From Clostridiales bacterium (lineage in GTDB: Bacteria; Bacillota; Clostridia; Lachnospirales; JAQSXR01): a stretch of 52,599 bases of DNA. Each line of letters starts with the position of its first letter. Position 1 is the first letter of the stretch. The stretch spans positions 1 through 52,599 of the forward strand of contig JAQSXR010000018.1 of the NCBI GenBank assembly GCA_029256575.1, written 5' to 3'. The position numbers and the translations under genes are program-made. The notes beneath the pieces are model-generated. The model did not search any database. It was given only the letters and a program-made list of their open reading frames with translations, and had not been told where the DNA came from. Below are positions 35,450 to 43,556 of this stretch, piece by piece.

Positions 35450-35693
35450 ATGATAAAAGCAATGATTGGAAGAGTAATTTTTTGATTACTTAACAGAGAT
35501 AGGAAGCCGCTGGCTGAAAGCTTCCCTTTGGTAACGAAAATGAAATGCATCCATGAGCTGGTTATGCGAAGTAATAGTAGCGTAGCACGTGTCGCACACG
35601 TTAAGTGCTTCAAGTTGAGAAACTTATAGTTTCTAACAAGAGTGGAACCGCGAACATAGCTTCGTCTCTTTATTGAGACGGAGCTTTTTGATT
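35450..35693 (+). promoter_or_regulatory. cysteine T-box riboswitch leader
   Basis: The T-box core AAGAGTGGAACCGCG (35638-35652) is followed by the terminator stem GCTTCGTCTC (35659-35668) / GAGACGGAGC (35675-35684) plus T run. The variable T-box base gives TGGA, which pairs with a tRNA ending in UCCA, matching tRNA-Cys (U73). A candidate UGC (Cys) specifier is at 35546-35548 in GAAATGCATC. Uncharged tRNA-Cys would stabilise the antiterminator and turn on cysE-cysS, an established logic for this family. Confidence 0.9.
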
Positions 35694-41142: not shown

Positions 41143-41763
41143 ATGTCTTGTAAATACCAAGAACTTACTGATGAGAACATAATAAAAACAATACATTTAG
41201 GTGATGACTTGGCAATGGAATTCTTGATTAATAAATATAAAAATCTTGTTCGAAAAAAGACAAACGCATATTTTTTGATTGGTGCAGATAAAGACGATTT
41301 AATTCAAGAAGGAATGATTGGTTTATTTAAGGCTATCAGAGAGTATGACGAATCACGAGATGCAAAATTTATTACGTTTGCTGACTTATGTGTCTCCAGA
41401 CAAATATTCACTGCAGTCAAAGCTTCAAATAGACTTAAGCATTTACCGCTTAATTCATACATATCTTTAAACAAACCACTCTACGAAGAAGAGAGTCCTA
41501 ACACTAAAGTTGAAGATCTATTAGAACTTAGAAATGTTGAAAGCCCAGAAGATGTAATAATTGGGAAAGAAAACCTCAGACGAATTGAAAAGGAACTTGA
41601 GAATAACTTAAGTGAGTTGGAAAAGGAAGTGCTGTTCTTATACTTAGAGGGGCAAGGGTATGTTCAGATTGCGGAGATTATGGGGAAGCAAGCTAAGTCG
41701 ATAGATAATGCATTGCAACGTATAAGGAAAAAGGTTGGAGTTATTTTTAAGGAAGTTAATTAA
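41143..41763 (+). CDS. sigH: RNA polymerase sigma-H factor
   Basis: 206 aa, 2 bp after rae1. Sigma-70 region 2 (LIQEGMIGLFKAIREYDESRDAKFITFADLCVSRQIFTAVKASNRLKHLPLNSYISLNKPL) and region 4 (LSELEKEVLFLYLEGQGYVQIAEIMGKQAKSIDNALQRIRKKV). Drives early sporulation genes; the yacP neighbourhood separates it from other sigma factors. It is followed by a long repeat-rich spacer. Confidence 0.95.
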   Translation: MSCKYQELTDENIIKTIHLGDDLAMEFLINKYKNLVRKKTNAYFLIGADKDDLIQEGMIGLFKAIREYDESRDAKFITFADLCVSRQIFTAVKASNRLKHLPLNSYISLNKPLYEEESPNTKVEDLLELRNVESPEDVIIGKENLRRIEKELENNLSELEKEVLFLYLEGQGYVQIAEIMGKQAKSIDNALQRIRKKVGVIFKEVN

Positions 41764-41774
41764 ATATGATTTAG

Positions 41775-41853
41775 GTTATAGATAAAGATATAAGAAAAAG
41801 ATAAAGATAAAAGATAAAGATAAAGATAAAAGATAAAAGATAAAGATAAAGAT
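41775..41853 (+). repeat. AGATAAA-type short tandem repeats
   Basis: About ten units of AGATAAA/AGATAA follow sigH. The run lies 24 bp before the long inverted repeat. AT-rich microsatellite. Confidence 0.85.
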
Positions 41854-41876
41854 ACAGGGCAATACAAGGGGAAGAG

Positions 41877-42130
41877 TTTGCTAGAGCTGACGGAGAGTTC
41901 TATAGCTGTTTGCAATAGCGATTCGGAAAGCTCGTATATCTAATAGAATGGGAATTGCTTAAGGCAGTGGATAAAATGGGGAACTCGCCTCATTGTTGTG
42001 TAGGACGAGGGGTATTTAGCTCAGACACCCCCATTTTATCCACTATAAGCAATTCCCATTCTATAAGATATACGGCATTCCTCATAATGTATTGCAAACA
42101 GCTACAGAACTCTCCATCAGCTCTAGCAAA
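41877..42130. repeat. 254-bp long inverted repeat (giant hairpin)
   Basis: The left arm (41877-41981, about 105 nt) and right arm (42029-42130, about 102 nt) are almost fully complementary apart from one internal-loop block near the middle and a 2-nt bulge. Arms begin TTTGCTAGAG and end CTCTAGCAAA. The 47-nt central spacer holds smaller inverted repeats (CTCG/CGAG). The two isolated substitutions at symmetric positions give C/A on this strand but G-U wobble on the other, hinting that the minus-strand transcript folds better. No gene and no target-site duplication is evident. Confidence 0.92.
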
Positions 42131-42240
42131 CATTAAGTGGATGGGGTATAAAAGATGAAAAATTAATACATATACTATTACTTAAAAATTAAATCTTGAA
42201 ACCTATCTAAAACTTATCTAAAACCAAAAATATAAGAACT

Positions 42241-42338
42241 AAGATCTAAAACCTAAGATCTAAAACCTAAGATCTAAAACCTAAGATCTAAAACCTAAGA
42301 TCTAAAACCTAAGATCTAAAACAAAAGATCTAAAATCT
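42241..42338 (+). repeat. 14-bp minisatellite, seven units
   Basis: Seven consecutive 14-bp units of AAGATCTAAAACCT (the last two differ slightly), starting 110 bp after the giant hairpin. Together with the AGATAAA run, they bracket the inverted repeat. Confidence 0.92.
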
Positions 42339-42484
42339 AATCTTACTTGATCCTAGATGCATGTAGTTGTACTATGAAAAATCATAAAAACACGAAACAG
42401 CATAGAATTATATAGTTGACAAGTAAGTATAAAATGTATAAAATAAGCAATGGATATAACAAAGATAAGAATGTTAAATGTAAT

Positions 42485-42557
42485 GCTGACGTGGCACAGT
42501 CGGTAGCGCGCCACCTTGGTAAGGTGGAGGTCGGGGGTTCGAATCCCCTCGTTAGCT
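42485..42557 (+). tRNA. tRNA-Thr(GGT)
   Basis: 73 nt. Acceptor GCTGACG / CGTTAGC, D arm with AGTCGGTAG, anticodon arm CCACC-TTGGTAA-GGTGG (anticodon GGT), T loop TTCGAAT. Discriminator U; no encoded CCA. A terminator lies 43 bp after. Confidence 0.9.
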
Positions 42558-42726: not shown

Positions 42727-43302
42727 TTAATTCTTTGTAAATCGTAGTATCATTCCTCCTGAAATAGTAAATACATCTCCATTCCCTAATCGAAGATTAC
42801 TATAGCTTTCACGGCTATCACCCCAAATCGAATCAGGAGTTGCTAAAATTTCATTTAAGCTGTAATCACCACGGCCCAAAGAAGAAACTTTTCCTTGAAA
42901 GTTTCCGGAACCAGAAACTACATAGACATCATATTTACCAGCGCTAATATCTTCGCCAACAATATACTGACCGTTATTGAGTTCTATGACATTTTGCTGC
43001 TTATTTGAAAGGCTCACTGTATTAGTAGAACCGTCCCAATAGACGTCCTTTCCTAACCGTTCGGCAAGTTTACGCATTGGTAGATAAGTTGTTCCTTTGT
43101 AAACTACAGAAAAAGGGATGATGGATCCGTTGTCCAATATGTAGTTATCGCCACTACTGGTTATTTTAATACCATCGACAACTACATTCACAGTATTTAA
43201 GGCCGTTTCGATAGTTTGTGCTAATACTGGCAGAGTGAAACAAATCAACAATGTAAGGAAGGAGCCTATTAATAGATACTTTGTTTTTTCAAGTTTTTTC
43301 AT
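42727..43302 (-). CDS. secreted stalk-domain protein (copper amine oxidase N-like)
   Basis: 191 aa from ATG at 43302 (GAGGTA 8 nt upstream; ATG 43308 is less well spaced). Signal peptide (LIGSFLTLLICFTLPVLAQT). The stalk domain GSIIPFSVVYKGTTYLPMRKLAERLGKDVYWDGSTNTVSL is of the Cu_amine_oxidN1 family, common in clostridial surface proteins, and C-terminal YIVGEDISAGKYDVYVVSGSGNFQG. Role unknown; not an oxidase. Confidence 0.86.
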   Translation of the reverse strand: MKKLEKTKYLLIGSFLTLLICFTLPVLAQTIETALNTVNVVVDGIKITSSGDNYILDNGSIIPFSVVYKGTTYLPMRKLAERLGKDVYWDGSTNTVSLSNKQQNVIELNNGQYIVGEDISAGKYDVYVVSGSGNFQGKVSSLGRGDYSLNEILATPDSIWGDSRESYSNLRLGNGDVFTISGGMILRFTKN

Positions 43303-43556
43303 TTTCATTACCTCTTTTTGGTCTTTTATAGTATCAAAAGTAATGTGCAAGAAATTCTATATTACTAAATTATAACCTTTTAAATCATAACTTGCAATAT
43401 GACTTTGCTTTCTCAAAAACCATTCCCTCCACTTGGTGTTATTGCGAAATTAAGTAAGATAATGTATAATACTGGTAAAATAAGAAAATTGCTTGGGGTG
43501 CTGAGTTGATTTTACTAGTAAATTTACATGTTGAAACCAGGAAGGAATATTAAATT

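Follow-up and report, generated by a model that had tools for sequence, protein, structure and literature searches.

Between sigH and tRNA-Thr(ggt), within the 52,599-nt stretch of DNA analysed here (the window), lies a giant near-perfect inverted repeat (Table 1). A sequence-only reading of the window had placed the repeat between these two genes, and we confirmed both gene calls as well as the repeat, whose true limits are one base wider on each side than had been noted. The hairpin comprises three helix blocks with about 92 pairs and a 47-nt centre. Its minimum free energy was −156.7 kcal/mol for the plus strand and −162.0 kcal/mol for the minus strand (z = −16.2 and −20.8 against shuffled sequences), and none of 200 shuffles was equally stable. 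No terminator-like site was seen in the interval between sigH and the hairpin. An Rfam scan over the hairpin returned no family at the gathering score; a below-threshold match to mir-577 (E = 0.0007) reflected the long stem only.

Table 1 Features of the hairpin locus and of the window (positions in the window; 'sense' is the direction of sigH)
Feature	Position	Strand	Remarks
T-box leader (RF00230)	35453–35672	+	
sigH	41143–41763	+	NF006148, E 1.4e-75; 3' end 112 nt before the element
AGATAA-type tandem array	41780–41854	+	in the sigH–hairpin interval
Giant near-perfect hairpin element	41876–42131	+	256 nt; one of seven copies in the genome
Outer helix, 5' arm	41876–41917	+	42 nt, 95% complementary; sequence variable, covaries with 42090–42131
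Basal internal loop, 5' side (GCGATTCG)	41918–41925	+	ATT kept among seven copies (alignment)
Middle helix block, both arms	41933–41961/42046–42074		29 nt, 97% complementary
CTAATAG	41940–41946	+	opposite CTATAAG at 42061–42067
A.A mismatch (minus strand T.T)	41942/42065		7/7 own-genome copies and 11 aligned G253 copies
Asymmetric middle loop, 5' side (GCTTAAGGCAGTG)	41957–41969	+	family consensus GCTTAGAACAGTG
Inner helix, 5' arm	41966–41981	+	16 nt, 100% complementary to 42029–42044
Apical module, 5' side (AACTCGC)	41982–41988	+	
30-nt loop	41989–42018	+	length constant in 7/7 copies; sequence hypervariable; minus strand G-poor
Apical module, 3' side (GCTCAGACA)	42019–42027	+	
Inner helix, 3' arm	42029–42044	+	partner of 41966–41981
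Asymmetric middle loop, 3' side	42041–42050	+	family consensus CACTTGGCGC
CTATAAG	42061–42067	+	partner of 41940–41946
Basal internal loop, 3' side (CATAATG; minus strand CATTATG)	42083–42089	+	invariant, 7/7 copies
Outer helix, 3' arm	42090–42131	+	partner of 41876–41917
14-bp tandem array (ATCTAAAACCTAAG)	42216–42340	+	past the hairpin
Promoter-like TTGACA-17-TAAAAT	42416–42444	+	ahead of tRNA-Thr(ggt)
tRNA-Thr(ggt)	42485–42557	+	downstream of the hairpin
ORF with copper amine oxidase N-terminal-like domain	42727–43350	−	

Seven palindromes with covarying arms and fixed modules

BLAST and a covariance model built from the copies identified exactly seven full copies in the genome that holds the window (G000; 3.11 Mb, 64 contigs). 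The others are 72–79% identical to the window copy (21–28% difference), and in the seven-copy alignment both-sided changes were found at 37 of 92 stem pairs, with 95.3% of cells paired. This covariation was matched by 0 of 500 shuffles, and slid controls came nowhere near it. The outer and inner arms vary freely between copies and retain their complementarity. Four features are not homogenised: the basal loop, an A.A mismatch, an asymmetric middle loop and an apical internal loop. On the minus strand, the invariant part of the basal loop reads CATTATG and the mismatch, there T.T, is set in CTTATA/TATTAG; the apical internal loop is AACTCG...CTCAGACA on the plus strand and TGTCTGAGC...GCGAGTT on the other, and the copies end in GTTTGCT...AGCAAAC. 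The hairpin is a member of a previously unnamed family of dispersed, non-coding palindromic repeats, about 190–310 bp long and found in several genera of one order.

The suggestion that this might be a MITE-like repeated palindrome was therefore borne out, with seven copies in the genome, many in relatives and covarying changes in the arms; its proposed refutation, no further copies or arm changes that break pairing, was sought in the genome and its relatives and is not what we found.

Private tandem arrays lie 11–85 nt from five of the seven own-genome copies (the window arrays, and those at L033, L034, L037 and L038). Seven arrays fall within 400 nt of copies, compared with 11 across the remaining ~131 kb. 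Such private arrays beside hairpins would fit replication trouble at the palindrome.

Copies in related genomes

Covariance model R1, with which unrelated perfect hairpins score up to 41 bits, detected 13 copies in G253, 10 in G370 and 2 in G382, which are other genomes of the order, all of one family. A sequence-only profile of the seven copies matched copies from G404, G253 and G402 of genus g118, which belongs to another family of the order, with E values to 1.3e-10. These matches were in register over the middle and apical modules, and the same loci reversed gave one chance match (E = 0.31). With model R2, matches were obtained in 12 of the 15 g118 genomes and in a few other genera; of 397 genomes drawn from the family as a sample, 7 matched. 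Membership for G370, G382, G497 and G676 rests on the covariance models together with the apical motif. The AACTC module of that motif was present in all own-genome copies (7/7) and in those of G253 (13/13), G370 (9/9), G382 (2/2) and G497 (4/4), and in 0 of 18 copies of TwoAYGGAY (RF01731), a named hairpin family discussed below. The apical part of relatives is a short stem (G253) or a few nucleotides (G370 and G382), so the open apical loop is not essential.

Rfam searches of the window, the element and the relatives' loci gave nothing for the family. The exact basal-half pattern had two chance matches in the genome collection, neither with such a hairpin, and no match in the viral collection, and the apical pattern had four matches in viral contigs, of which three were folded, none giving such a hairpin, and two were near-identical in sequence. 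A BLAST match in G024 and a match in G282 (L043) were attributed to chance or unrelated hairpins, and apparent ORFs spanning the G370 repeats were judged spurious.

Other long hairpins were seen in the same genomes. A second hairpin subfamily occurs in G253 (L147, L151–L155 and L159–L169); its ends resemble those of the G253 family, its 29-nt loop (GCTACCTTACCCTGTCGGCCGGATTACGC) hardly varies, and changes in its stem are matched between the arms, among them a paired 1-nt deletion. Beside the G370 copies are intergenic clusters (L053:1109-1332 and L049:1200-1330) in which at least three unrelated modules, each a long hairpin, are combined in different ways.

Elements lie mostly behind genes

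Over the whole collection of elements, with TwoAYGGAY counted in, 58 gene 3' ends and 11 gene starts fell within 60 nt of an element. For six of the seven own-genome copies the upstream gene runs in the same direction and lies at 35–135 nt; the seventh copy stands between divergent genes. The six host genes are sigH and, as we take them to be from their translations, a YhaM-like exonuclease, a PTS permease, spoVG, aspS and a pullulanase-like gene. For most G253 elements the conserved end TAGGACGCTTTGCC starts 0–26 nt past a stop codon, in the sense orientation. Pooled copies had the upstream gene in sense in 46 cases and antisense in 26, and among the G402, G403 and G405 orthologues the orientation to the nearest gene was reversed.

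Host genes are mostly unrelated, the clearest recurrences being aspS (G000 and G404) and a cytidylate-kinase-like gene (G370 and G404). Some copies occupy the same gene in sister species and can thus be long-lived; as evidence of an ancient position, common host genes are suggestive only. A composite transposon made of inverted hairpin pairs was considered and rejected for most pairs, which lie between convergent genes that each carry a separate hairpin at the 3' end.

Wobble pairs and matched arm changes

Arm differences had been said to give G-U pairs in minus-strand RNA only, hinting at selection on that transcript. This description fits the window copy, with three G-U pairs in its minus-strand fold, and fails for the other six, in which most lone transitions create plus-strand G-U pairs and the better fold is always that of the plus strand (6/6). 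Arm-to-arm alignment of 71 family copies gave 220 plus-sense (sense) and 238 minus-sense (antisense) G-U pairs, and adding 18 TwoAYGGAY copies gave 261 and 264 against 7383 Watson-Crick positions; these balances are pooled over related, non-independent copies, and single genomes deviate (59:18 in G253 and 28:6 the opposite way in G401). All that the wobble count shows is that the family as a whole favours neither strand. This balance does not support selection on a minus-strand transcript, and the same claim is further weakened by a search of the minus strand adjoining the hairpin, which gave no promoter-like site, and by the plus-sense direction of the adjacent upstream gene in six of the seven genomic copies.

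Near-identical G253 copies revealed neighbouring multi-base changes made on both arms jointly and, in one copy, a single-base deletion on both arms together (L154, L163 and L165 for the two kinds of change). Template switching has been described as a maker of perfect stems (PMC8794818), and matched arm changes that include an indel are simply explained by template switching between the arms. Against such DNA-level homogenisation, selection on an RNA or DNA stem also yields double changes, and orthologous copies carry single changes besides double ones: between species, one orthologous pair had 11 double, 7 wobble and 6 broken positions and another had 30, 7 and 8.

Comparison with known hairpin families

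A 2010 study presented TwoAYGGAY as a probable RNA whose role was unknown (PMC2864571), and it was later proposed to bind CsrA as a sponge (PMC4333381). We found it to be a dispersed repeat with 7–20 copies per genome in G319, G072 and G351. Like the window family, it is a long imperfect hairpin, multi-copy and intergenic, with asymmetric or tandem-GA internal loops and, in G072 and G319 copies, a U.U mismatch in a CUUA/UUAG context; on visual comparison, L042/L052 and the G319 copies have motifs resembling the tandem GA and the CUUA/UUAG region of the basal stem, with no significant sequence-profile match. The two differ at the apex, which in TwoAYGGAY consists of two AYGGAY hairpins and in the window element of one internal loop and the 30-nt loop, and in the UGAGC/GCGAG module (AACTCG/CTCAGACA on the other strand) of the window family. 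RF01731 had no match in G000, and none on the window element even when E values as high as 10 were admitted. TwoAYGGAY is the nearest named relative in architecture, and membership fails. A common origin is only suggested, because RF01731 misses the genome, the profiles do not connect the two families and R1 scores of up to 41 bits are obtained with unrelated hairpins.

REP/BIME elements (of RAYT systems) are likewise mismatched palindromes, mostly extragenic and behind genes, and a G253 copy (L143) supplies a TAG stop codon, as GTAG REPs can (PMC3733652). REP stems measure 5–13 bp (PMC3733652), in contrast to about 90 pairs here, and the ends GTTTGCT/AGCAAAC lack the conserved GTAG/CGTC tag of those short palindromes. 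REPs would also be expected to flank the RAYT of their genome; the palindrome beside the RAYT of this genome is another, short one. With MITEs and palindromic elements such as ERIC, RPE, bcr1 and Correia the family shares a dispersed, non-coding, inverted-repeat build of ~100–300 bp with strong hairpins and terminal inverted repeats. It differs from them in having no target-site duplication or parent insertion sequence that we found, in fully covarying arms and in the conservation of its apical and middle modules between two families of the order. Integron attC sites also keep structure as sequence varies, have a variable apex and lie behind stop codons; the window family is much longer, forms no arrays and has GTTTGCT/AGCAAAC at its ends in place of the RYYYAAC/GTTRRRY core boxes.

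Copying and candidate mobilising enzymes

Near-identical copies of the G253 subfamily lie at different, unrelated genes, which indicates recent copying, and G370 copies are up to 98% identical. No target-site duplication was recognised in the aligned flanks, and neither an empty site nor a transposase for the family was identified. IS3-family-like transposase ORFs are found between two inverted hairpin pairs of G253 (L129 and L134), a link that is unproven. The own genome encodes a RAYT (REP-associated tyrosine transposase; L187:1380-1907), with a short palindrome (AAGAACCGTCCC) about 325 nt upstream (L187:2232-2298) that is unlike the window family. We rejected this RAYT as the mobiliser, as its neighbouring palindrome is different and short and no Y1 transposase was found in several carriers (G382, G072, G401 and G350). 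A tandem array related to the RAYT palindrome (GGGGACGGTTCTT) occurs at L033:122-297.

Interpretation and alternatives

The best reading of these data is a real, dispersed giant-palindrome family of the REP/MITE kind, with arms homogenised strand-neutrally and modules fixed, resembling mobile palindromic DNA more than a dedicated small RNA. We propose an oversized REP/MITE-type element that would spread by being copied, probably by a trans-acting process that uses the folded single strand, and whose copies would be retained chiefly where they are least harmful, directly behind stop codons. The arms may be kept near-identical at the DNA level by template switching between them during replication, which would produce double changes of the Watson-Crick type, with wobble intermediates seldom left behind and neither strand preferred. 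The asymmetric modules (apical AACTCG/CTCAGACA, middle loop, A.A mismatch and basal loop) resist homogenisation and may be the recognition features of a putative protein. Read-through from a host gene would place a very long 3' hairpin on the transcript, with an expected effect on 3' end formation and decay. The whole account builds on the family, its copies, their covariation, conserved modules and position, the strand-neutral wobbles and the near-identical recent copies, and adds to them template switching, trans mobilisation, protein recognition and an effect on mRNA as proposed steps; we give it a probability of roughly 0.55. Speaking against it are the gene-end bias, which selection by itself or a function at gene ends could explain, the same-gene copies in sister species, and the want of a target-site duplication, empty site or transposase, the RAYT having its own palindrome.

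Some of these points would suit a structured 3'-UTR RNA, a possible explanation to which we give perhaps one chance in a few. Host transcripts would read through into the hairpin, whose loops would bind a protein or set RNase III cleavage and so control mRNA 3' ends and stability, and covariation would reflect selection on RNA pairing. Stem covariation as expected of a structured cis-RNA is indeed present, although the wobbles are strand-neutral; they are also rare and show no sense-strand bias over the family. The sense placement behind the upstream gene in six own-genome copies and the terminator-free gap after sigH agree with such an RNA, as do the conserved asymmetric loops and the retention at the same gene in sister species, and most G253 elements begin so close to the stop codon that read-through transcripts must include them. 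The reversed orientation in G402/G403/G405, the 26 antisense cases among the pooled copies and the mostly unrelated hosts are harder to reconcile with it. A double-stranded chromosomal palindrome serving as a cruciform or recombination site, attC-like or related to replication, seems improbable to us. It would explain the long palindrome with its fixed unpaired features and variable apex, the private tandem arrays, as expected under replication stalling, and the place behind stop codons, attC sites standing behind cassette genes; the copies are nevertheless single and dispersed behind core genes, not in cassette arrays, and by inspection their ends misfit the attC core GTTRRRY. Slightly less credible still is a TwoAYGGAY-type small RNA that would sequester CsrA and whose GGA loops would have been lost or altered. 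Its appeal lies in the common long-hairpin architecture, in TwoAYGGAY reaching 20 copies per genome, in one G072 copy having the CATTATG..GAATG loop and CUUA/UUAG U.U mismatch of the window family, in a 57-bit match of R1 to another G072 copy (unrelated perfect hairpins reaching 41 bits) and in the csrA gene of the own genome. Yet RF01731 found nothing in G000 or six further carriers, the sole exception being G382 at a sub-threshold E of 0.14, the sequence-only profile misses TwoAYGGAY loci, the two AYGGAY hairpins are absent, the AACTC module is lacking in all 18 TwoAYGGAY copies, and no csrA match was found in carriers G370, G382 and G497.

Implications

Returning to the mobile-repeat reading, it is conceivable, though we hold this doubtful, that the window elements, TwoAYGGAY and other long-hairpin families of the same genomes form a superfamily of structure-recognised mobile palindromes, with a dedicated putative enzyme that would recognise the folded strand by its fixed apical and middle modules and place copies directly behind stop codons. 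If so, what was originally described as the TwoAYGGAY RNA would be a mobile DNA element. The family questions TwoAYGGAY as a simple CsrA sponge RNA, a role on which its own 7- to 20-copy dispersal also bears.

A long perfect hairpin in which dozens of pairs have changed on both sides is usually read as proof of a functional RNA. Here the same covariation pattern comes without strand preference, and even with matched indels in near-identical copies, which offers a test for separating arm-to-arm DNA copying from selection on RNA. The family also points to a putative enzyme that may cope with palindromes of ~100 bp, whose cleavage or deletion would be expected in most bacteria.
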